Shown here piece by piece: positions 10,250 to 24,662 of a DNA stretch of 64,000 bases. A model generated the notes under the pieces. The model searched no databases. It saw only the letters and a list, made by a program, of their open reading frames with translations, and had not been told where the DNA came from. How positions within the stretch are numbered: position 1 is the first letter of the stretch; every line of letters begins with the position of its first letter. Origin of the DNA: Gemmatimonadales bacterium (GTDB taxonomy: Bacteria > Gemmatimonadota > Gemmatimonadetes > Longimicrobiales > Gaopeijiaceae); NCBI GenBank assembly GCA_020344755.1, contig CP070829.1:398001-462000 (forward strand), given 5' to 3'. Made by a program: the position numbers and the translations under genes.

Positions 10250-11296
10250 TCAACGCCCCTCCAGGAAGCGACGGATCTCCCGGAGGAAGGCCTCGGGCTG
10301 CTCCATGAATGCGAAGTGGCCCGCGTCGCGGATCCGCACCAGCCGCACATCCTCCAGACTCCGGATCAGGGCCTCGCCCCCGACGTCGACGCCCGGCTCC
10401 TCCGCTCCGTAGACCAGGAGGGTAGGCACTCCAAATCCCTCCAGCTGCTCCTGGAGGTCGAAGCCCGCGAGTTCGGGCCCCATGACGCCGAGTTGACGAC
10501 TGCGTTCCAGGTAATCGGGGGGCACGTAGATCGAGAGTCGGTCGGCGGACTCCGGATCATGGAACTGGAGCCGGAACGCGTGCCGGAGCAGGGCCTCGAT
10601 GGCTTCGGGTTCTCCCGTCGCCACTCCGGGGGCCTCCCTCAGCCTCCTGGCCTCTTGGGAGTGCGCCGGCGGCACGTCCTCCAGCAGGCGCGCCTGCTCC
10701 TCCCGCTGCAGGGAGGCGCTGGGCGCGGTGGGGCTGACCAGCACCAGGGACGCCAACCGGTCCGGGTACTGGAGCCCATAGTGGAGGGCCAGGAAGCCGC
10801 CCCAGGAGTGGGCCAGGAGAGTGATTCTCTCCAGCCCGAGGGTCTGACGGAGGACCTCCATGTCCGCCACGAACGCCTCCACGCTCACGCTCGTCGAGTC
10901 GACGTGCCCCGCGGAGCGCCCCGAGAGTCGCTGATCGAAGAACACCAGGGTCCGATCGTCCCCCAGGGGTGCCAGGTAGGGGAGGAGATACCCGTGGTCC
11001 AGGAGAGGACCGCCGTGGACCACCAGGACTGGAGGCCCCGACCCCATGGTCTTCACGAAGAGCTCGGTTCCGTTCACGGGCAGGAGGCCTTCGGAGAAAT
11101 CGTCCGGCGCTCCCCGGGTCTGAACTTCGGGATCGGAGGGGTCTTCCGGCCCCTCCCGGGTCTGGGATCCGGGAGGAGCTTCCCCCCCGGCACAGGCAGC
11201 CCCCAGGACCGCAGCTGCGAGCAATCCGGCCCGTGCCCGGAGCGGTGCCGGCACACCGCGGACCTGGACCGCCCCGTCCATCCTCCTGGTTGTCAT
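10250..11296 (-). CDS. Exported alpha/beta hydrolase, proline iminopeptidase-like
   Basis: The start at 11296 has GGGAG seven bases upstream; the second in-frame ATG at 11281 also follows an AGGAGG but with no spacing. The signal-like segment RAGLLAAAVLGAAC suggests a lipoprotein, although the lipobox is imperfect. The mature domain shows VVHGGPLLDHGYL (oxyanion), DQRLSGRS, the nucleophile AHSWGG, an acid near YGAEEPG and the His in DAGHFAFME. The order HGGP, DQRG-like and G-x-S-WGG is characteristic of proline iminopeptidases and related esterases. It is followed after one base by the macro-domain gene. The substrate is unknown. Confidence 0.8.
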   Translation of the reverse strand: MTTRRMDGAVQVRGVPAPLRARAGLLAAAVLGAACAGGEAPPGSQTREGPEDPSDPEVQTRGAPDDFSEGLLPVNGTELFVKTMGSGPPVLVVHGGPLLDHGYLLPYLAPLGDDRTLVFFDQRLSGRSAGHVDSTSVSVEAFVADMEVLRQTLGLERITLLAHSWGGFLALHYGLQYPDRLASLVLVSPTAPSASLQREEQARLLEDVPPAHSQEARRLREAPGVATGEPEAIEALLRHAFRLQFHDPESADRLSIYVPPDYLERSRQLGVMGPELAGFDLQEQLEGFGVPTLLVYGAEEPGVDVGGEALIRSLEDVRLVRIRDAGHFAFMEQPEAFLREIRRFLEGR

Positions 11297-11444
11297 CCAA
11301 ACGCTCCCAATTGCTGTTCGTCCTGGCCTTTGGAGCCCTTCGACTGCATCGCCCCGGTCATCATGCCCTCCCGCTCCACTTCCCCAAACTCGTTCCAGGA
11401 ACGCCACCGCGCATCACGACCCCACCGAAGCCCCATCTCCACTC

Positions 11445-11481
11445 CGTAACCAACCCGTCACGTCGTAACGATTCTGTTACA
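11445..11481 (+). promoter_or_regulatory. Pho-box-like repeats before the porin gene
   Basis: Four GTAAC/GTCAC/GTAAC/GTTAC units begin at 11446, 11457, 11465 and 11476: two pairs each spaced 11 bp, the pairs offset by 8. The last unit CTGTTACA is close to the enterobacterial PhoB half-site CTGTCAT. A candidate -10 (TGGAAT, 11491-11496) begins 9 nt after the last 7-mer, the same geometry as at pstS. Confidence 0.75.
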
Positions 11482-11565
11482 GTTCCGTCTTGGAATCACC
11501 TTCTTCCGGGTGCACGTTCCTTCCCGTGAACACAACTCACTCGCCCGCATCCGGAAGGATCTGAC

Positions 11566-12618
11566 ATGAATCGAGTGCTTCTGGTCCTCGCGCTCCTGGT
11601 AGCCTTCATTCCCGCCGACGCCCTCCAGGCGCAGGCCGAAATCTCGGCCCGGGGCGCGACCCTCAGAATGGGGGGCCGTCTCCACGCCCAGTTCCAGTCC
11701 TCCTCGGTGGAGGACACCGAGGCCGACTTCTTCTTCCGCCGGGCTCGGCTCATCGCCGACGTCACCGTGACGGACTTCTGGTCCGGCCGGGTGCAGGCGG
11801 ACTTCGCCGGTGGTGGCGCCTCCCTCCAGGACGCGTACGTGCGGATGAACTTCGCCGACAACTTCCGGGTCTCCATGGGGCAGTTCAAGCGAGCCTTCGA
11901 CCTCTTCGAGCTCTCCAGTTCCACCGAACTGAGCATCATTGAGCGGGACGGCCGGGTGGCCGGCGTGAGCGCCTGTACCGGCGTCGGTCGGGTCTGCTCC
12001 TACGGCCGTTTCATCAGCCGCCTGGCCCTGGGAGGCCGGGACCAGGGGGTCCGGGTGGAGACCGGTTTCGGACAGTTCTCCTTCCTGGGGACCATCACCA
12101 ACGGCGCCGGAGCCAACTCGTCGGACGAAAACGACCAGAAGTCCCTCTCCGGGCGGCTCACCTTCCAGGCCACGGACGACATCGCCGTGTCGGCGCAGTT
12201 CGCCCGGCACGACTTCGTCAACGGGCTCGAGGACGACTACGCCAACGCTTGGGCCGTGGACGGGGAGTACGGCGGCTTCCGGGACGGCCTGCACGTCCAG
12301 GCTGCGCTGACGGGCGGGGACAACTGGCGCATCCTCGACGGAGAGGGTGACCCCTCGACCTTCATGGCCTGGCAGGCCGTGGGAAGCTGGTATCTCCCGC
12401 TCTCCACTGAGCGGTTCGTGGCGTGGGAGCCGCTCTTCCGCATCAGTTCCGGGGACCCGAACACCGACGTGGACGACGATGCCGGGCTGATCTTCACCCC
12501 CGGGGTCATGCTCTACGTCCAGGGTCGAAACAAGGTGGGATTCAACGTGGACTTCTGGAGCCCCGAGACCGGGGATTCCGAGTGGAGCCTGAAGTTTCAG
12601 AGCTTCCTCTACTTCTGA
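11566..12618 (+). CDS. Phosphate-selective porin OprP/OprO family
   Basis: A 350-residue outer-membrane beta-barrel with a Sec signal (MNRVLLVLALLVAFIPADALQAQA). The mature start (ISARGATLRMGGRLHAQFQ), the FFFRRARL block, GRVQADFAG, DAYVRMNF and GQFKRAFDLFEL, and the aromatic C terminus LKFQSFLYF are typical of porin_O_P (PF07396). Family members form anion or polyphosphate/phosphate channels. The setting supports this: Pho-box-like repeats lie upstream and the pst operon lies downstream. A strong terminator follows, so it is its own transcription unit. Specific phosphate selectivity is inferred from context, not from residues. Confidence 0.88.
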   Translation: MNRVLLVLALLVAFIPADALQAQAEISARGATLRMGGRLHAQFQSSSVEDTEADFFFRRARLIADVTVTDFWSGRVQADFAGGGASLQDAYVRMNFADNFRVSMGQFKRAFDLFELSSSTELSIIERDGRVAGVSACTGVGRVCSYGRFISRLALGGRDQGVRVETGFGQFSFLGTITNGAGANSSDENDQKSLSGRLTFQATDDIAVSAQFARHDFVNGLEDDYANAWAVDGEYGGFRDGLHVQAALTGGDNWRILDGEGDPSTFMAWQAVGSWYLPLSTERFVAWEPLFRISSGDPNTDVDDDAGLIFTPGVMLYVQGRNKVGFNVDFWSPETGDSEWSLKFQSFLYF

Positions 12619-12662
12619 TTGGATTTCGGTCTTCCCGACGCCAGATGTAGTCGGATCCTCGA

Positions 12663-12695
12663 GGGGGGTGCAGCGCGTGGCTGCGCCCCCCTTAT
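12663..12695 (+). terminator. Rho-independent terminator after the porin gene
   Basis: A 12-bp stem (arms 12663-12674 and 12680-12691, one G-U pair) with a five-base loop, followed by TTATCTTC. It separates the porin from the sensor kinase gene. Confidence 0.85.
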
Positions 12696-12744
12696 CTTCG
12701 ATGCATCCTCACCATCCGAGTGACCGAGTAGAGGACCGGGCCAG

Positions 12745-14484
12745 ATGCGGTTGAGAATCCACCACGCCCTCTTCATGGGCTTCGCCGGGACCATTGCCGC
12801 CGTCGTCCTCCTTCTCGCCTTCCTCGTTGGAAACCGCGTCCGCGCAGAGATGCGGGACACCTTCGAGAGTGAGATGGGGCGGCAGCTGAACCTCACCGGC
12901 GTCATCCTGTCCCGGGTGCAGCCGGATGGACTGCAAGCGGCGGTTGACTCGGTAGCCCGGGAGATGGGACACCGTGTCTCCGTCATCGCCCTGGACGGGG
13001 AGGTGCTTGCCGACTCGGAGGTGGCACCCGCCGACCTCGCGGGAGTGGACAACCATGCCACCCGCCCCGAGGTGAGGCAGGCCCTCTCCGGAACGCGGGG
13101 GTTCGCCACGCGCACCAGCGCCACGGTGAACGACCCCTTCCTCTATGGCGCCCAGTTCGCGGAGGTGGGCGGCCAGGAGATCGTCCTGCGCATCGCAGCC
13201 CCCCTCGATCGGATCGACGTCGCCGTGGAGCGCCTCCGGGGACGCATCATCCTCACCGGGGTGGTGGCCATGGTGCCGGCGCTGGTGCTGGCCTGGATCC
13301 TGGCCCTCCTCCTCGCGAGCCCGATGGCGAAGCTGGCCGATCAGGCCCGTCTCCTGGCCGCCGGCAACCTGGAGCTCCGGGTCCCCACCGGCCGCCGAGT
13401 CGCCGAGCTGGAGAACCTGGCCAGCGCCTTCAACCGGTTGGGAGAAGAGCTCCAGGGCCGCATGACCGAGCTGGCAGGAGAGAGGGACGAGATTCAGGCG
13501 CTCATCGACTCCCTCGACCAGGGGCTCCTCGCCCTGGACCCCGACGCCCGGTTCGTGCGCTGGAACCGGACCGCCGTCCAGTTGCTCGCCCTGCCCGAGG
13601 GACTTCGTCCCTTCACCCCGGCCACTGCCCTGGTCCGGCACGAAGGGCTCCGTGAGGTGCTTCTCGCCGCCGCCGAGGGCCGAGAGGTCACGCAGGAGGT
13701 TCACCTGCACGATCGGGAGTTGGTCGTCACGACCCACCCCCTGTCGGGTGGAGGCGGGGCAGCGGGAATCCTGGACGTGTCCGAGATTCGGCGGCTTGAG
13801 CAGGTCCGGAAGGACTTCGTGGCCAACGCCTCCCACGAATTGAAGACCCCCCTCACCTCTTTGCGGGGGTACGCCGAGACCCTCCTGGAGGAGGATCCGG
13901 GTGCCGAGATTCGGCGCACCTTTCTGACCTCCATCCTGAACAACACGGTGCGCCTTCAGAACTTGGTGGACGACCTCCTGGACCTTTCCCGGCTCGACTC
14001 GGGCGGATGGGTCGCAGACACCCGCCAGCTCGAGGTGGGTCGGATTGCCCGGGAGGCCTTCGATCCCTTCCGGGACGAAGCTGAGGCGGGGAACCGGTCC
14101 TTCGAGGTGGAGGGATCGGCGCAGGCGGTGGCCGATCCCGCCGGATTGATCCAGGTCTTCCGTAACCTCTACGAGAACGCCCTTCGGCACACCGATCCCG
14201 GTGGATCGGTCCAGGTGGTCATCCGCGAAGAGCCGGAGACGGTGCACGTGGCCGTCTCGGACGACGGCGAGGGGATCCCCCAGAAGTCCCTGCCACGCAT
14301 CTTCGAGCGCTTCTATCGGGCCGACTCCTCCCGGGACAGGGACCAGGGTGGGACGGGCCTCGGCCTCGCCATCGTGCGGCACCTGGTACAGAGCATGGGA
14401 GGCACGGTCTGGGCCGAGAGCGAGCTCAGCGGGGGCACGACCGTGAACTTCACCCTGCCCCGGCACGTCTCTGACGAACAATGA
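12745..14484 (+). CDS. phoR: PhoR-like sensor histidine kinase
   Basis: A 579-residue membrane kinase. It has TM1 at about residues 8-28, a periplasmic region of about 135 residues, TM2 at about 168-190, a HAMP linker, and a PAS-like region from about 245 (IDSLDQGLLALDPDARFVRWN). The HisKA box is VANASHELKTPLTSL with phospho-acceptor His364. The HATPase_c has N box NLYENALRHTDPGG, G1 DDGEGIP, F box FERFYR and G2 GGTGLGLAI. Phosphate-sensing PhoR is the best reading because pstSCAB-phoU follows directly. Oddly, no response regulator gene (phoB/phoP) is adjacent or in the window. Its large periplasmic domain is longer than in enterobacterial PhoR. Confidence 0.85.
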   Translation: MRLRIHHALFMGFAGTIAAVVLLLAFLVGNRVRAEMRDTFESEMGRQLNLTGVILSRVQPDGLQAAVDSVAREMGHRVSVIALDGEVLADSEVAPADLAGVDNHATRPEVRQALSGTRGFATRTSATVNDPFLYGAQFAEVGGQEIVLRIAAPLDRIDVAVERLRGRIILTGVVAMVPALVLAWILALLLASPMAKLADQARLLAAGNLELRVPTGRRVAELENLASAFNRLGEELQGRMTELAGERDEIQALIDSLDQGLLALDPDARFVRWNRTAVQLLALPEGLRPFTPATALVRHEGLREVLLAAAEGREVTQEVHLHDRELVVTTHPLSGGGGAAGILDVSEIRRLEQVRKDFVANASHELKTPLTSLRGYAETLLEEDPGAEIRRTFLTSILNNTVRLQNLVDDLLDLSRLDSGGWVADTRQLEVGRIAREAFDPFRDEAEAGNRSFEVEGSAQAVADPAGLIQVFRNLYENALRHTDPGGSVQVVIREEPETVHVAVSDDGEGIPQKSLPRIFERFYRADSSRDRDQGGTGLGLAIVRHLVQSMGGTVWAESELSGGTTVNFTLPRHVSDEQ

Positions 14485-14505
14485 CCGTGTTGCACTGCGG
14501 CAGTG

Positions 14506-14545
14506 TGTTACCGGTCCGTTACAGGGCGATTACAGAACGGTACCA
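14506..14545 (+). promoter_or_regulatory. Pho-box array before pstS
   Basis: Four 7-mers (TGTTACC, CGTTACA, GATTACA, CGGTACC) start at 14506, 14517, 14528 and 14539, an exact 11-bp period like the PhoB box of other bacteria. A candidate -10 (TAACGT, 14555-14560) begins 9 nt downstream. This implies phosphate-starvation control of pstSCAB-phoU by a PhoB-type regulator. Confidence 0.85.
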
Positions 14546-14615
14546 GCCCTCTTCTAACGTTGGGTACTCGGACGTTCCGTCCGGCCTTGGTTGCCCAACT
14601 CAGGAGAACAGTCAA

Positions 14616-15572
14616 GTGGAGATTCGTTTGAGCCGGCTCGGTGCGGCCGCGGTGGCCCTCGCCTTCCTTTCCGCCTGCGGTGGCGGCGAACCCGAAGGAG
14701 CCGCATCCGGCGCTGCAAAGCTCACCGGGTCCATCGAGATCGACGGCTCCAGCACCGTCTTCCCCGTGGCGGCGGCCGTGGCCGAGGAGTTCCAGATCGC
14801 GAACCCCGACACCCGTGTCACCGTGGCCTACTCCGGAACGGGCGGGGGCTTCCAGCGATTCTGCGCTGGCGAGACGGACCTGTCCAACGCCTCCCGGCCC
14901 ATACGCGACTCCGAGGCCCAGGCGTGTCATGATGCCGGGGTGGAGTTCACCGAGCTCAACGTGGGCTGGGATGGTCTCTCCGTCCTGGCCAACCCGGAGA
15001 ACGAGTTCCTGCAGTGCCTGACGGTGGAGGAGCTCAATCGGATCTGGGAGCCCAATTCCACCGTGGTCACCTGGCGGGACGTTCGCGACGAGTGGCCGGC
15101 AGAGGAAATCCGCCTCTACGGACCCGGCACCGACTCGGGAACCTTCGACTACTTCACCGAGACCATCAACGGTGAGGGAGGCGCTTCCCGGGCCGATTAC
15201 CAGGCCTCCGAGGACGACAACATCCTGGTGCAGGGAATCGCAGGGGATACCTACTCCCTCGGGTACTTCGGGTACGCCTACTATGCGGAGAACTCGGACA
15301 TCCTGAAGCTGGTGGCGGTGGACGGGGGTGAAGGGTGCATCCTGCCCTCCGATGCGACCATCCAGGACGGAAGCTACGCCCCGCTCTCGCGACCCCTGTA
15401 CGTCTACGTCAGGCACTCCGCCCTGACGCGTCCGGAGGTTCGGGCCTACGTGGACTTCATGCTGGAGAACGCCCCGGCGATCGTCCCCTCCACCGGGTAC
15501 AGCGCGCTCTCCACCGAGCAGTACGCAGAGCAGATGCAGGCCATCGCCGAGGCCGCCGGTGGCGCAGACTGA
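14616..15572 (+). CDS. pstS: Phosphate ABC transporter substrate-binding lipoprotein PstS
   Basis: Periplasmic phosphate-binding protein of the Pst importer. The GTG at 14616 follows AGGAGA by 8 nt and gives a lipoprotein signal [17 protein letters not shown] (lipobox LSAC). Phosphate-binding blocks are visible: [10 protein letters not shown] near the mature N terminus, [25 protein letters not shown], and [12 protein letters not shown]. The protein matches the PstS/SphX lineage that ends in a region such as [16 protein letters not shown]. Longer in-frame starts upstream would run through the Pho-box array and are rejected. The stop overlaps pstC by 14 nt. Confidence 0.95.
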
Positions 15573-16539
15573 GCCGGCTCTCGGCCGACCTCACGATTAT
15601 CGTTCGGGTCCCGCGGGGCCGGCGGCCATCGCTGGCCCTGCGGCGCTCTCGTCGCGGAAGAACCGGGCCCTGAAGGAGCGGCTCATCGGAGCCGTTCTCT
15701 TCGTCTGCGCCGCCATTTCCACCCTGGTCACGGTGGGGATCGTGGCGGTGCTCCTGGGAGAGAGCCTGCTCTTCTTCCGCGAGGTCTCCCCTGTGGACTT
15801 CCTCACGGACACTCGGTGGACGCCCCTCTTCCAGGATCCCCATTTCGGGATCCTCCCCCTTGCCGCCGGGTCGTTCCTGGTCGCCGCCGGGGCGGCAGCC
15901 ATCGCCATCCCCGTGGGTCTCTTCAGCGCCATCTTCCTCAGCGAGTACGCAGGCGAGCGCCTTCGCGGCATCCTCAAGCCGCTCCTGGAGATCCTCGCGG
16001 GGATCCCCACCGTCGTCTACGGCTACTTCGCCCTCACCTTCATCACCCCCCTCCTCCGGGTCTTCTTCCCGTCCACCGACATCTTCAACGCCGCGGCAGG
16101 GGCGATCGTGGTGGGAATCATGATCATTCCGACGGTGGCATCGCTCTCCGAGGACGCCCTTCGAGCCGTGCCCGATGCCCTCCGGGAAGGGGCGTACGGG
16201 TTGGGCGCCACGAAGATGGAGGTCTCCACCCGGGTGGTGGTGCCGGGTGCCCTCTCCGGGATCATCGCCTCCTTCATCCTGGGGATCTCCAGGGCCATCG
16301 GGGAGACCATGGCGGTCACCATCGCCTCGGGGAACATGCCGAACCTGACCCTGAATCCCCTGGAGTCCATCCAGACGATGACGGCCTACATCGTCCAGGT
16401 CTCCAAGGGGGACACCCCCCACGGCACCGTGGAGTACCAGACCCTCTTTGCCGTTGGCCTGACCCTCTTCGTTATCACCCTCCTCATGAACATCCTCAGC
16501 CAGTGGGTGCTGGCCCGTTTCCGGGAGGAGTACGAGTGA
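15559..16539 (+). CDS. pstC: Phosphate ABC transporter permease PstC
   Basis: Inner-membrane permease with about six spans. It starts at GTG 15559 inside the end of pstS; the polar N-terminal 30 residues precede the first span ([25 protein letters not shown]). The binding-protein-dependent transport loop is [26 protein letters not shown], the EAA motif that contacts PstB. The segment [16 protein letters not shown] is typical of PstC. The 326-residue length is normal. Its stop overlaps the pstA start as GTGA (16536-16539). Confidence 0.95.
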
Positions 16540-17417
16540 CTCCGAAGCCCCTGGGCGGACCGCCGTCGGCCTTCGAGCGCCGCCGTCATCGGAAGGCCGC
16601 GATCTTCGCTGGCCTGGGACTTCTGGCTACCCTCGTGGGAGTCGTGGCGCTGGCCGTCCTCCTGGTGGACGTCACCATGGACGGAATCTCCGCCGTGGAC
16701 GTCGACTTCATCAACTCCTTCGCATCCCGCATTCCGGAGCGCGCCGGGATCAAGGCCGCCCTCTACGGCTCCGTCTGGATCCTGGCACTCACGGCCGCCG
16801 TGGCTTTCCCCCTCTCGGTGGCGGCGGCGATCTACCTCGAGGAGTATGCCGCCAAGAACTGGCTCACCCGCCTGATCCAGCTGAACATCGCGAACCTCGC
16901 CGGTGTCCCCTCCATCGTGTACGGGATCCTTGGGCTGACCGTCTTCGTTCGGGCGTTTTCCCTCGAGCGTAGCATCATCTCGGGTGCGTTGACTCTGTCG
17001 ATCCTGATCCTCCCGGTGATCGTCATGGCCGCGCAGGAGGCGATCCGAGCGGTTCCCAACTCCATTCGGGAGGCTGCCTACGGACTGGGTGCCACCCGCT
17101 GGCAGGTGGTGCGCCAGCAGGTTCTGCCCATGGCCATGCCGGGCATCCTCACCGGGACGATCCTGGCCCTCTCCCGGGCGGTGGGAGAGACCGCACCCCT
17201 GATCATGGTGGGGGCGGTGGGCTTCCTGGCCTTCACACCCTCTGGGCTCGGCGACCGCTTCACGGTGCTCCCCCTCCAGATCTACGACTGGATCTCCCGG
17301 CCCCAGGACGAGTTCCATGCCCTGGCCGCGGGCGGCATCATCGTCCTCCTCCTCCTGCTTCTCACCATGAACGCGACCGCCATCTTCCTCAGGAACCGTT
17401 TTCGGAAGCGGCTCTGA
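16536..17417 (+). CDS. pstA: Phosphate ABC transporter permease PstA
   Basis: Second permease subunit, 293 residues, starting at the GTG of a GTGA overlap with pstC; this start decides against a much longer in-frame opening that runs back through pstC. Six membrane spans are visible, with the PstA block [18 protein letters not shown] and the EAA loop [26 protein letters not shown]. The following [16 protein letters not shown] is also family-typical. It pairs with PstC to form the channel. pstB begins 4 nt after its stop. Confidence 0.95.
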
Positions 17418-17421
17418 ACCC

Positions 17422-18204
17422 ATGGCAACGATTCACGATATCGATACAGAGGGACGGCCCCCCGCGTTGGAGGCACGGAGCCTCTCCGTCTTCTACGGCT
17501 CCAAGCAGGCCGTGAAGGAGGTGGACCTGGTGGTCCCGGCCCACAAGGTGGTCGCCCTCATTGGCCCATCCGGATGTGGCAAGAGCACCTTGTTGCGCTG
17601 CTTCAACCGGATGAACGACCTGGTGGGGAGCGCCCGGGTCGAGGGACGTGTGGACTTCCACGGGAAGAACCTGTACGACGACGACGTGGACCCCGTGGAG
17701 GTCCGGCGCCGGATCGGAATGGTCTTCCAGAAGCCCAACCCCTTTCCCAAGTCCATCTACGACAACGTGGCCTTCGGACCCCGTGTGAATGGCTTCAAGG
17801 GTGACCTGGACGGTCTGGTCCAGGATTCGCTCCGGCAGGCGGCCCTGTGGGACGAGATCCACGACCGCCTGGGAGACTCGGCCTACGCGCTTTCCGGAGG
17901 GCAGCAGCAGCGGCTTTGCATCGCCCGAACGCTGGCCGTCAAGCCCGAGATCGTCCTCATGGACGAGCCCGCCTCGGCGTTGGACCCCATTGCCACTCAG
18001 CGCATCGAGGAGCTCATCTACGAGCTCAAGAAGGACTACACCATCGTCATCGTCACCCACAACATGCAGCAAGCAGCCCGGATTTCGGACTACACGGCCT
18101 TCCTCTACATGGGTGCGCTCATCGAGTACGGCCCCACCGACATGATCTTCACCAACCCGTCCGAGGAGCGGACGGAGGCCTACGTTACCGGGAGATTCGG
18201 ATGA
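17422..18204 (+). CDS. pstB: Phosphate ABC transporter ATPase PstB
   Basis: A 260-residue cytoplasmic ATPase that drives Pst phosphate import. Walker [10 protein letters not shown] is at residues 48-56, the Q loop in [11 protein letters not shown], the signature ALSGGQQQR near 155, Walker [14 protein letters not shown] and the H-loop VTHNMQQA. The NRMNDLV segment after Walker A and [12 protein letters not shown]-like end are specific to PstB. Its stop overlaps the phoU start as ATGA (18201-18204). Confidence 0.97.
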
Positions 18205-18920
18205 ACATGGACGGCACTCCCAAGCGGCATTTCCACGAGGAGCTGGATGGCCTCCAGGAGCTCCTCCTCACGATGGCCGGCAGGGTGGAACAGGCTGTGG
18301 CCCGGGCGCTCGAGGCTGTGGCCGTCGCGGACGCAACCGTCGCTGCGGATCTTCGCGCAGGGGACGGCGAGATCGACGAGATGGAGAGCCTGATTGACGA
18401 GCGGGTGCAGGAGCTCCTGGCCCTCCATCAGCCCATGGCGTCCGACCTCCGCCTCATCATCACCGTTCTCAAGGTGGCCAACGACGTGGAGCGTGTCGGG
18501 GACCATGCGGTGAACATCGCTCGAGCGGTCCGGCGTATGCGGAAGTCCTCTCCGCCTCCGGAGCTCCGGGAACTTCAGGAGATGGGCGACGTGGCTCGCG
18601 AGATGCTCTCCGATTCCCTGGCGGCCTTCGTCGCCCGCGACCCGGGATCCGCCATGCGGGTTCATGCCACCGACGACACGGTGGACTCCCTTCGAAAGTC
18701 CCTCTTCCGCATCATGGTGACCTATATGCTGGAAGACCCGCGCAACATCGGGAGTGGGCTCGAGGTACTCCTCATCTCGCAGAACATCGAGCGCATTGCG
18801 GACCTGGCCACCAACATCGCCGAGGACGTGGTCTTTCTCGTGAAGGGCCGCGAGGGGATCCGCGACATGAAGAACTGGGCGGATCACGACGCGGACGGCG
18901 GCGAGGACGAGGGGGGCTGA
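18201..18920 (+). CDS. phoU: Phosphate-specific transport regulator PhoU
   Basis: A 239-residue all-helical protein with two PhoU repeats. Each carries the E/D-x-x-x-D metal-binding type helix: [33 protein letters not shown] in the first half and [35 protein letters not shown] in the second. PhoU links the Pst transporter to PhoR and represses the Pho response when phosphate is plentiful. The start at 18201 is fixed by the ATGA overlap with pstB. It closes the pst operon. No terminator is obvious in the 58 nt before the convergent DinB gene. Confidence 0.95.
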
Positions 18921-21025: not shown

Positions 21026-21790
21026 CTATCCGTCCGCGTCGAGCCGCCCACCCGTCCGCAGGTAGGTGGCGAAGTCGTCGGGAAGGGTGCTCTCGCGAAT
21101 GGCCTGGGCCGCACGGTCCACGTCGTAGTCCACCCGCCGAAAGTCCACCTCCACCTCGCCCTCGCCCTCGCCCAGCGTGAGAACCACGTACCCGGCTCGC
21201 CAGTTGCCGTCCTTGGGACGCCCCACCGACCCGGTGTTCACGAAAAGGACTCCATCCAACTCCCGGGACCAGGGCTTGTGGGTATGGCCGAAGGCCACCA
21301 CGTCCCCGGGACGAGCGCCCATTCGCTCCGCCATCTTGCCACAGAAATCAGCCGACCGGTCCTCGGTCCAGTAGACCGTGTTCAGCACCGGGTTTCCGTG
21401 GATCAGCCGCAGCGTGGGGCCTGCCAGGTGCCCCCCCAGGGGTCGAAGGTCCAGACGGAAGGGGAGGGCGGCGAGCCACGCCCGAGTCTCCGCCGACGTG
21501 TGCTCCAGGGTCCAGGCATAGGAGAGGTGGGACAGCTCCGACTGCCGTGGATCCTCGTACTGGCACCCGCAGTGATCGTACCCCGTGGCCACCGTGGAGT
21601 CGTAGTTGCCCGCCACGCCGGCGATTCCCCTCTCTCGTAGCCCGGTGACCACCTCGTTGGGCCAGGGAGCGTATCCCACCAGGTCTCCCAGGTGGTAGAT
21701 GGCCTGGCAACCATCTCCGTCGATCCCCGCCAGGACGGCCTCGAGAGCCGGAAGGTTGCCGTGCACGTCGCTCAACAGGGCGATCCTCAT
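21026..21790 (-). CDS. Calcineurin-like metallophosphoesterase, last gene of the ars operon
   Basis: A 254-residue phosphoesterase with the family metal motifs SDVHGNL (D-x-H), YHLGDLVGY (GD), AGNYD (GN-x-D), IHGNP and GHTHKPW. This is the YfcE/DNA-ligase-flanking type of small phosphodiesterase or phosphatase. Its start is fused to the acr3 stop as ATGA (21787-21790), so it is the fourth gene of arsR-arsM-acr3-phosphoesterase. Metallophosphatase genes are sometimes found in arsenic islands; what this one cleaves is unknown. Confidence 0.9.
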
Positions 21791-22941
21791 GACGTTCTCC
21801 CATTTCCGGCCCGCCGGGCCCCGCTGGTGACCTCGGTGGCGCAGAGGTCCGGGTCCAGCGAGGGGCCTCCGTCACCGACTTCAGCCCCGAACCAGCGGCG
21901 CTGGAGCCAGAAGGCCACGTGTACCAACCCCAGGAGGACCGGTACCTCCACAAGGGGACCGATCACCGCAGCGAACGCCGCCCCGTGCGCGATCCCGAAG
22001 GTCCCCACCGCCACCGCGATCGCGAGCTCGAAGTTGTTGCTCGCCGCCGTGAAGCTCACCGATACCGTCTTCGAGTAGTCGGCGCCCACGGCTCGGCCCA
22101 TGGCGAAGCTCACCAGGAACATGGCCACGAAGTAGATCAGAAGGGGCACCGCGATCCGTACGACACCCGCCGGAGTGTCCAGGATCGCCTCCCCCTGGAT
22201 GGAGAACATGACCACGATGGTGAAGAGGAGCGCCACCAGGGTCAGTGGAGAGATCCGGGGGATGAACTCCCTGGCGTACCACTCTTTCCCCTTCCGCCGC
22301 ACCAGGGCGAAGCGAGTCGCCATTCCGGCCAGGAAGGGGATCCCCAGGTAGATGAAGACACTCGTGGCGATCTCAGCCATGGTGATGTCCACCACCGCCC
22401 CCTCCAGCCCGAGCCACTCCGGCAGGAGGGTGATGAAGAACCAGGCGTAGACGCTGTAGAAGAGGACCTGGAAGACGGAGTTGAACGCGACCAGACCGGC
22501 CGCGTAGTCGTTGTCGCCATCCGCCAGCTCGTTCCAGACGATCACCATGGCGATGCACCGGGCCAGACCGATGAGGATCAGTCCCACCATGTACTCGGGG
22601 TAGTCCCGGAGGAAGGCCACCGCCAGCACGAACATCAGGATGGGGCCGATGATCCAGTTCTGGACCAGGGAGAGCGCCAGGATCCGCCAGTTTCTGAAGA
22701 CGTCCCCGAGCTCCTCGTAGCGCACCTTCGCAAGCGGCGGGTACATCATGAGGATCAGCCCGGCGGCGATCGGAAGCGAGGTTGTCCCGAGCTGGGTCCG
22801 CTCATTCAGTACCTGGACACCGTCGGACCAGAGGGCGCCCAGCACCACTCCGGCACCCATCGCCAGGAAGATCCAGAGGGTCAGGTAGCGATCCAGTACG
22901 GACAAACGCGCCCGCAATGTCTGGCCCGAGGCGTCGCTCAC
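21787..22941 (-). CDS. acr3: Arsenite efflux permease Acr3
   Basis: A 384-residue inner-membrane arsenite exporter of the ACR3 (BART) family, with about ten spans. The hallmark [16 protein letters not shown] contains the conserved, functionally essential Cys of Acr3. The block [21 protein letters not shown] and the late [15 protein letters not shown] are also typical. The start is the GTG in the GTGA overlap with arsM (22938-22941). The short C-terminal tail ends near GARRAGNG. It lowers cytoplasmic arsenite and competes with ArsM for the same substrate. Confidence 0.95.
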
Positions 22942-23774
22942 GATTCGGTCTCCGGCTTCCGGGCGCGAACGAACGCCGACATGAACATGCCGTCCACCTC
23001 CTCCGACAGGGCCTCCAGGTCCAGGCCCGCCTCCTCGAGGAAGGCCCGGGCCTCCTCCACTCGGTAGACCCGCGTGGGCTCCAGGGAGATATCGTCGAAT
23101 CCCGCAGCAGCCAACTTGGCGCGGAACGCCCCCACCGAGAGGGCACCCGCGATGCATCCGGCCCACAGCTCCAGGCTCCGCCGCACCAATTCGGGAACCT
23201 CGTCATCCCTGCTCACGATGTCCGAGACGGCGAAGCGCCCGCCGGGCTTGAGGACGCGGTATGCCTCCGCGAGGACCCGGTCCTTGTCCGCGGAGAGGTT
23301 GATGACGCAGTTCGAGACGATGACATCCACCGATGCGTCGGGGAGGGGGATGGCTTCGATGTCCCCTTTCAGGAACTCGACGTTCTCCGCTCCCGCCTCC
23401 CGGGCGTTGGCCCGGGCGAGCTCCAGCATCTCGTCGGTCATATCCAGTCCGTACGCCTTCCCGGTGGGACCCACTCGGCGTGCCGACAACAGGACGTCGA
23501 TCCCGCCTCCACTCCCAAGGTCCAGGACCACCTCTCCCGGCCTCAGATCCGCCAGCGCCGTGGGGTTGCCGCACCCCAAAGAGGCCAGCATGGCCCCCTC
23601 CGGAAGGCTCTCCGAGGTGACCCGATCGTACAAGTCCCGGGTGACCGGGTCTGTGGAGCCGTCCTTCCCTTCCGAGCTGCAACCACAACCGCAGTCTCCT
23701 CGCCTTCCTTCCACCACCCGCAGCGCAGCCTGTCCGTACTTCTCGCGGACCGTGGCCCGAAGCTGGTCACTCAT
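22938..23774 (-). CDS. arsM: Arsenite S-adenosylmethionine methyltransferase ArsM
   Basis: A 278-residue SAM-dependent methyltransferase that converts arsenite to methylated arsenicals. The three arsenic-binding cysteines are seen in SLGCGNP (Cys68), VSNCVINL (Cys156) and [10 protein letters not shown] (Cys207), plus an N-terminal cluster CGCGC (28, 30, 32). The SAM motif is [12 protein letters not shown]. Start ATG at 23774; the stop overlaps acr3 by 4 nt. It lies behind a second ArsR-type operator (23860-23877), so it may be transcribed separately from arsR as well as with it. Confidence 0.95.
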
Positions 23775-23859
23775 GACAATTCCTCCGTCCGGATGCGTGC
23801 ATCCGGGTAAGGGACCGATCCCGGTCGTGGCGACCCGTGGGGGTCCGAGGGGTCCATTC

Positions 23860-23877
23860 CATCAATGATCGTTGATG
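23860..23877 (-). promoter_or_regulatory. Second ArsR-type operator, before arsM
   Basis: Inverted repeat CATCAA-N6-TTGATG, 85 nt upstream of the arsM start. Its arms match the core of the larger operator in front of arsR (ATCAAC / GTTGAT). It suggests ArsR also controls an internal promoter for arsM-acr3-phosphoesterase. Confidence 0.6.
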
Positions 23878-23905
23878 TTTGAGGGCAAAAAAACGACGTC
23901 GGCCA

Positions 23906-24241
23906 TCATCCGCAGCAGCGGGAGTCCGGCCGTCCCCGCCACGCCTCCTCGCACACGCTCCCAAGCTCCCCGAGAACGCTCCGCATCTCCTCGAGCGCCT
24001 CGGGTACCAGGCGATAGTAGACCCAGCGGCCGTCCCGACGGTCCTCCACCACTCCCGCGTCCTTCAGCTTCTTGAGGTGGAACGAGAGCCGGGACTGAGC
24101 CGCGTCGAGGTCTACCTGCAACTCGCAGACACACCGTTCCCCGGCGGAGAGGAGCCGGACGATGGACAGGCGCGTCTCCTCCGCCACGGCCTGGAACCGC
24201 TGGAGGAGGATGGCGTCGGAGCTGGGCGGGGAGTTCTTCAT
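23906..24241 (-). CDS. arsR: ArsR-family arsenite-responsive repressor
   Basis: A 111-residue winged-helix repressor. The recognition region ERCVCELQVDLDAAQSRLSFHLKKLKDAGVVEDRRDGRWVYYRL matches ArsR/SmtB. Possible As(III) ligands are Cys37 and Cys39 in the CVC motif, and Cys97, Cys109 and Cys110 at the C terminus, a layout recalling ArsR proteins whose site is built from C-terminal cysteines. The third Cys of the classical C-x-C-x-x-C site is absent (Gln42). I take ATG 24241 because an ATG at 24253 overlaps the -10. It heads the arsenic operon. Confidence 0.92.
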   Translation of the reverse strand: MKNSPPSSDAILLQRFQAVAEETRLSIVRLLSAGERCVCELQVDLDAAQSRLSFHLKKLKDAGVVEDRRDGRWVYYRLVPEALEEMRSVLGELGSVCEEAWRGRPDSRCCG

Positions 24242-24248
24242 ACCGACA

Positions 24249-24276
24249 ATCATATCAACGTCTGTTGATATGTCAA
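24249..24276 (-). promoter_or_regulatory. arsR promoter with embedded operator
   Basis: On the minus strand a consensus -35 TTGACA (24276-24271), a 16-nt spacer and -10 TATGAT (24254-24249). A perfect inverted repeat ATATCAAC-N4-GTTGATAT (24252-24271) fills the spacer and overlaps the -10 and the edge of the -35, so a bound repressor would block polymerase. Seven bases separate the -10 from the arsR ATG, so the transcript may be leaderless. Confidence 0.85.
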
Positions 24277-24662
24277 CCGCCGGTCGCCGCTCCCGTGAGG
24301 TCGTCGCACAGGAACCGGGTGCCCTCCACTCTGCCGCCGCCATTGAACCAGGCCACGAGCTTCAGAGCTTCGTCCAGCCACAGATCTTCGATGAAGAGGA
24401 TGCGACGGGTGACTCGAGTGTCGCCCGCCGGCGTCGTGGGGATGATGTCCCCGAGCACCGCCACACCGCCGGCATCCGGACCGGAACGCGTCGTGTACGC
24501 CTCGAATCGAGCCAGCACGGACTCGAGCGCCATCCCTTCGTCCACCTCTACCGCCAGCCGGGCGAGCGGGTGGTGCTCGCATCGGAAGGCGGGGGAATCC
24601 AGGAACGACACCGCCGGTACGGCTGCCCAGGCGAGTCCGCCGAGGACCAGGAGGGTGTTCAT
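24273..24662 (-). CDS. Small exported protein of unknown function
   Basis: About 129 residues from ATG 24662, with a short N-terminal hydrophobic signal (MNTLLVLGGLAWAAVPAVSFL) and a charged, mostly soluble remainder (EDLWLDEALKLVAWFN ... VEGTRFLCDDL). I recognise no family. It lies between the ABC ATPase gene and arsR; the stop is 31 nt from the arsR start, inside the arsR promoter. Codon use looks normal for this genome. Confidence 0.5.
   Translation of the reverse strand: MNTLLVLGGLAWAAVPAVSFLDSPAFRCEHHPLARLAVEVDEGMALESVLARFEAYTTRSGPDAGGVAVLGDIIPTTPAGDTRVTRRILFIEDLWLDEALKLVAWFNGGGRVEGTRFLCDDLTGAATGG

Follow-up and report, generated by a model that had tools for sequence, protein, structure and literature searches.

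Gene organisation of the phosphate locus

We analysed a 64,000-nucleotide stretch of the genome of a Gemmatimonadales bacterium (contig CP070829.1, positions 398,001 to 462,000; hereafter the window) that carries a set of phosphate-uptake genes and two arrays of GTTAC-type repeats, one upstream of a porin gene and one upstream of pstS. We read these arrays as probable Pho boxes, served by a regulator whose gene lies elsewhere in the genome. The genes follow one another on the plus strand: the porin (11566–12618), a PhoR/PnpS-like sensor histidine kinase with HAMP, PAS, HisKA and HATPase domains (12745–14484), pstS (14616–15572), pstC (15559–16539), pstA (16506–17417, approximate start), pstB (17422–18204) and phoU (18204–18920). 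PstS, a phosphate-binding lipoprotein with an inferred GTG start (TIGR02136, 275 bits), PstC (TIGR02138), PstA (TIGR00974), PstB (TIGR00972) and PhoU (TIGR02135) each score above the cut-off of a curated model. The porin was assigned to the phosphate-selective O/P family by Pfam PF07396 (E 1.8e-14, 54.2 bits against a gathering cut-off of 20.9), a match that covers residues 34–200 only, and it has no NCBIfam match.

Two repeat arrays precede the porin and pstS

The array upstream of pstS (14507–14546, plus strand) consists of four units in 11-bp phase, GTTACCG at 14507, GTTACAG at 14518, ATTACAG at 14529 and GTACCAG at 14540. The array upstream of the porin (11446–11482, plus strand) is built of two 11-bp pairs: GTAACCA at 11446 is followed by GTCACGT at 11457, and 8 bp further on GTAACGA at 11465 is followed by GTTACAG at 11476. 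Because GTNAC reads as GTNAC on the opposite strand too, the reading direction of the porin array is uncertain. A first-pass annotation of this DNA had described GTTAC-type repeats phased by 11 bp before both genes, the porin array being two pairs offset by 8 bp, and the unit positions bear out this geometry. It had also placed a candidate −10 element nine bases after the last 7-mer; the measured gap is 8 bases in both promoters, so that the first bases of the last unit and of the hexamer lie 15 bp apart. The candidates are TAACGT for pstS (14555–14560, plus strand; 3/6 to TATAAT, 48 bp past the start of the first unit) and TGGAAT for the porin (11491–11496, plus strand; 4/6 to TATAAT), and both are weak. 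A scan for sigma-70 promoters with a −35 element listed two, both on the minus strand; the rule of that scan would reject the array hexamers in any case.

A search of the window for three units, one mismatch being allowed, gives a single place, against none in 20 Markov shuffles, and four GTNAC motifs within 35 bp occur once, against none in 200 shuffles. We also searched the whole genome for the array, as the first-pass annotation had proposed. When up to three mismatches are permitted, three units were found at 12 places, compared with 7 for a control pattern; among these 12 the pstS array alone has a single mismatch, whilst the other 11, one of which overlaps the pstS array, have three. The layout of the porin array, with up to two mismatches allowed, was likewise found at a single place, and its control matched none.

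Three other features of the window lie near these genes. A divergent hydrolase open reading frame (ORF; 10250–11407, minus strand) flanks the porin array on its far side. The gap between porin and kinase holds a strong GC hairpin (12663–12691, plus strand; the fold of 12650–12710 has −36 kcal/mol and z −5.0) with a poor T tail, a possible terminator or attenuator, which is not one of the 3 terminator-like sites listed by the terminator scan. A few kb past phoU, on the minus strand at 21787–24343, lies a set of ORFs that, judged by eye, may be of arsenic type (ArsR-like, methyltransferase-like and arsenite-pump-like).

Probable Pho boxes recur in related genomes

The arrays were compared across 58 genomes, including our own (G000). 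The exact dyad GTTAC-N6-GTTAC occurs 17 times in the 479,547 bases of 40 loci that surround phoR orthologues, and it is absent from one Markov shuffle per strand. Over all 58 genomes it occurs 95 times, as against 53 for the reversed control pattern, a total that was summed by hand. Thirty-three of the 95 dyads, found in 25 genomes, are no more than 1.5 kb away from a listed phoB, phoR, pstC or porin match, where 0.26 would be expected if they were spread evenly; the coordinates of the phosphate genes for this count were typed by hand and come from among the matches listed. None of the 95 falls inside any of the 161 listed phoB, phoR, pstC and porin matches, a set that excludes pstC entries that are pstA cross-matches or second copies, kinases below the phoR entries and two partial porin entries of G016. 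Many of the near dyads, among the matches listed, occupy a promoter position before phoB, pstS or the porin, and in several relatives, such as G035, G043, G047 and G054, an exact dyad lies no more than 200 bp from phoB itself.

The spacing between array and −10 element also recurs in some of the promoters. Averaged over 37 arrays from 44 loci, agreement with TATAAT is highest at an offset of 15 bp, counted from the first base of the last unit (mean 1.86; the next highest is 1.68, at 13), and when only hexamers matching at least four of the six bases are taken, offset 15 is again best (5/8). Thirteen promoter regions of pst or its porin, our own included, were each set against 300 shuffles, and 12 contain an array beyond the shuffles. 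Among the 12 regions from relatives, 5 have a TANNNT hexamer at +30 to +74, in every case at 48 or 59, which are one unit apart and in the phase seen in our own promoter; four of these five had already been noticed by eye before the phase rule was coded, the fifth, G048, not having been judged beforehand. These comparisons agree with the Pho-box identity proposed in the first-pass annotation: dyads cluster beside phosphate genes and the array recurs in the relatives' promoters, which makes the predicted identity convincing.

Both arrays might instead be chance repeats. In favour of this, a two-unit pattern with one mismatch shows no enrichment in our own genome (19 places against 25 for the control), so two units alone say little. 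Three further exact dyads in this genome (L140, L142 and L143) lie beside a peptidase-like gene, between an amidohydrolase-like gene and a lysine-rich ORF, and in an unassigned stretch, as judged by eye from the ORF lists. A wider regulon had been considered from these dyads and was dropped: no phosphate-like gene was seen near them by eye (no family search was made), and they were therefore taken as chance. As an account of the two arrays themselves, chance is contradicted by the whole-genome three-unit and porin-layout scans, by the GTNAC shuffles and by the relatives' promoter arrays and the dyads near phosphate genes; we consider it extremely improbable.

A PhoB orthologue is encoded apart from the kinase

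The kinase lies between the two arrays, and no response regulator adjoins it. The genome, 93.64% complete, yielded three OmpR-type regulators with a Trans_reg_C domain, none of them in the window, which upholds the first-pass annotation's statement that PhoB is missing there. The unlinked PhoB-like regulator that it had expected elsewhere was found at G000:C1:970469-971233: TIGR02154 is the best of the 96 families matched (241.9 bits), and the protein is 76–80% identical to the PhoB encoded beside phoR in four members of the genus (G001, G002, G003 and G005). The predicted contact surfaces of the pair are conserved: the helix-1 region of PhoB is almost invariant across 13 genomes, and the DHp region of PhoR in 12 relatives is 67–79% identical to our own, where whole PhoR proteins share 42–50%. 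A scan of contigs for further PhoR relatives gave 17 loci that match chiefly in the kinase core and stay below 40% identity throughout; they were not used.

Since kinase and regulator are unlinked, their pairing rests on orthology, and the kinase could in principle act on another of the OmpR-type regulators, at 2.33 Mb or 3.45 Mb. The regulator at 2.33 Mb, however, adjoins a kinase-like ORF of its own (HisKA at 2335737), and both regulators score best against a heavy-metal regulator model, below its cut-off, so that we give this alternative partner very little credence beside the PhoB orthologue.

Gene order in the relatives bears on how the separation arose. A phoR entry is present in 47 of the 58 genomes, the other 11 being left out of this count, and in 40 of the 47 phoB lies within 5 kb of phoR; the figure becomes 41 if G011, in which a phoB fragment stands beside phoR at a contig start, is included. 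The two genes are split, with intact flanks, in G000, G009 and G029. In G042, G049 and G056 they lie on different or cut contigs, and these three of the 47 count neither as adjacent nor as split. As relatives mostly keep phoB near phoR, the separation in our genome looks derived. In G022 the genes form one row, upB-phoB-porin-phoR-pstSCAB-phoU-SDR, and the order upB-phoB-SDR without the middle block is found in our own genome, in G009 and in G024. In the last of these, a 99% complete genome that keeps phoB (L138), the best kinase match to our PhoR, among the matches listed, has an E value of 1.5e-34, and no PstC was found at 1e-25.

Two side observations concern the same genes. Even where neither phoR nor pst is nearby, phoB remains linked to upB, which by eye is synthase-like, and to an SDR-like gene (L133:6541-9313; L134; L138). 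Seven genomes (G017, G019, G020, G026, G027, G029 and G030) each hold two close phoB-like genes, and in G027 each of the two has its own phoR-like kinase.

The genome is a single 4.1 Mb record stitched together, so its order is unreliable and the 558 kb that it shows from phoB to phoR mean little as a distance. One may thus ask whether the split is itself an artefact of pieces joined by 100-N spacers. Such damage does occur in this record, in which rpoB is broken in two at 100-N spacers that are some 200 kb from each other (G000:C1:3810194-3812392, L178, and 4009483-4011498, L185). The 64 kb window and the 15 kb phoB locus are nevertheless free of N, the junction that the missing block leaves between phoB and SDR is clean, and upB-phoB-SDR is also the order in G009 and G024; an assembly artefact is accordingly most unlikely. 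In a separate observation on rpoB, the model match in more than 20 of the 25 genomes matched (L159, for example) stops at about 1104 and resumes at about 1090 after 340–370 bases, pointing to a putative insert of about 110 residues near the C-terminus in those genomes.

The block and the regulator may have different histories

The pstSCAB tree, from which the long branch G023 had been dropped, places our genome with G022 (97/96*). Holding our pst genes with G001 and G003 was rejected (p 0.0096), as was holding them with the whole genus (p 0.021). In the PhoB tree, by contrast, our protein lies within the genus (96/90*), and grouping it with G022, G009, G017 and G024 was rejected (p 0.031). The other four genus members form a clade without our own in the PhoR tree (100/100*). 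The upB tree groups our genome with G001, G002 and G003 (88/94) and puts G005 elsewhere on weak support.

These trees would fit a horizontal origin of the kinase-pst-porin block, acquired as a xenologue from a lineage near G022, with the native PhoB taking over its control; regulator and kinase would then differ in history. The pst placement, the PhoB position and the PhoR clade of the other genus members all speak for such a transfer. Against it, a PhoR clade of all five genus members was not rejected (p 0.103), and the six-row PhoR group that holds our own is unstarred (84/94). Nor was a PhoB clade of the other four members without our own rejected (p 0.129), so that our genome may be the deepest branch of the genus. 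The members of the genus disagree on pst, which paralogy and differential loss would fit too, and the groups used in the tree tests were named after the trees had been seen.

Composition also counts against transfer. The tetranucleotide profile of the block correlates with other loci of its own genome at r 0.957 and that of the phoB locus at 0.971, compared with 0.69–0.89 for loci of five relatives; the block is thus native in make-up. The same values disfavour contamination of the bin, which had also been considered. When another 20 kb of the window was compared as DNA with 14 genomes, 13 of them showed scattered matches, the strongest in G017, of another genus, and the next in G005, of the same genus; this comparison was indecisive. 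That the block was transferred from a lineage close to G022 is therefore a possibility only, which we hold tentatively; differential loss of old copies would fit too. The stronger statement, that kinase, transporter and target promoters were replaced en bloc from another genus and that both the PhoR and the Pho boxes with which a native, unlinked PhoB now works are foreign, we consider rather unlikely as it stands. If it were true, the partial break-ups seen in G009, G029 and G024 would amount to a natural experiment in the splitting and re-pairing of a two-component system.

A classical phosphate-starvation regulon as the preferred reading

Taken together, the locus is best read as a classical phosphate-starvation regulon made up of a PhoR-like kinase, an unlinked PhoB orthologue and Pho boxes, to which we assign a probability of roughly 0.85; binding, phosphotransfer and induction are carried over from the known system. 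The kinase would sense phosphate status through PstSCAB-PhoU and phosphorylate the PhoB orthologue. Phosphorylated PhoB would occupy the GTTAC units, phased at 11 bp, in head-to-tail fashion, in place of a −35 element, and recruit RNA polymerase to the weak −10 hexamer that starts 15 bp past the first base of the last unit, so that transcription of the porin and of pstSCAB-phoU would go up. The genes probably descend from an ancestral cluster upB-phoB-(porin)-phoR-pstSCAB-phoU-SDR, of which our genome would have kept upB-phoB-SDR in place, with the porin-to-phoU block elsewhere. The kinase would thus be an orphan because this cluster broke up and the block now lies elsewhere, and not because its regulator is missing.

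Besides the unenriched two-unit pattern, several observations weigh against this reading. The kinase falls below the curated cut-offs of both models that it matches (252.3 against 334.2 for TIGR02966, PhoR, and 296.9 against 400 for NF046044, PnpS); it is predicted from its neighbourhood to work like PhoR without being a strict family member. The PhoB orthologue also stays below its cut-off, at 241.9 against 296.2 for TIGR02154. The porin hexamer TGGAAT does not fit TANNNT, and in 7 of the 12 regions from relatives none of the offsets tested gives a TANNNT. One of the 13 promoter regions set against 300 shuffles, that of G012, has no array. Sixty-two of the 95 exact dyads lie more than 1.5 kb from any listed match, and the reversed control itself gives 53. 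Finally, the 15 kb around our own phoB contain neither GTTAC-N6-GTNAC nor GTNAC-N6-GTTAC, and self-activation of phoB may consequently be absent in this genome.

Relation to known systems

The Pho box of Escherichia coli is described, in the portion of PMC4415409 compared here, as at least two 11-nt direct repeat units, each of seven conserved and four less conserved bases, with a consensus that differs among species (CTGTCAT, GTTCACC). Unit length and phase are the same as in our arrays; the core recognised by E. coli PhoB is CTGTCAT, whereas here it is GTTAC. According to the same portion, the PhoP box of Streptomyces, GTTCACC, also consists of direct repeats with a core similar to our GTTAC, and the number and order of its units vary by promoter. 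The GTTAC core would therefore be one more species variant of the Pho box. Myxococcus xanthus PhoP4, again as described there, is an orphan phosphate regulator without its own kinase, which resembles our case; it is, however, extra to PhoR1-3/PhoP1-3, whereas the sole PhoB-like gene found here is unlinked (PMC4415409). PhoR-PhoB and pstSCAB genes are recorded in Gemmatimonadota (PMC10581226); they are the same genes as here, and neither boxes nor gene order appear in the portion of that account compared. A limited survey of literature titles found none on Pho boxes in these organisms, and prior publication is possible.

Arrays of this sort are commonplace in Pho regulons, which makes the finding less remarkable than the first-pass annotation implied. 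It nonetheless supplies a likely Pho-box consensus for this bacterial order, GTTAC-N6-GTTAC with a −10 element beginning 15 bp past the first base of the last unit, and names the regulator. It also indicates that the absence of phoB beside phoR can reflect a changed gene order and not a new form of regulation.

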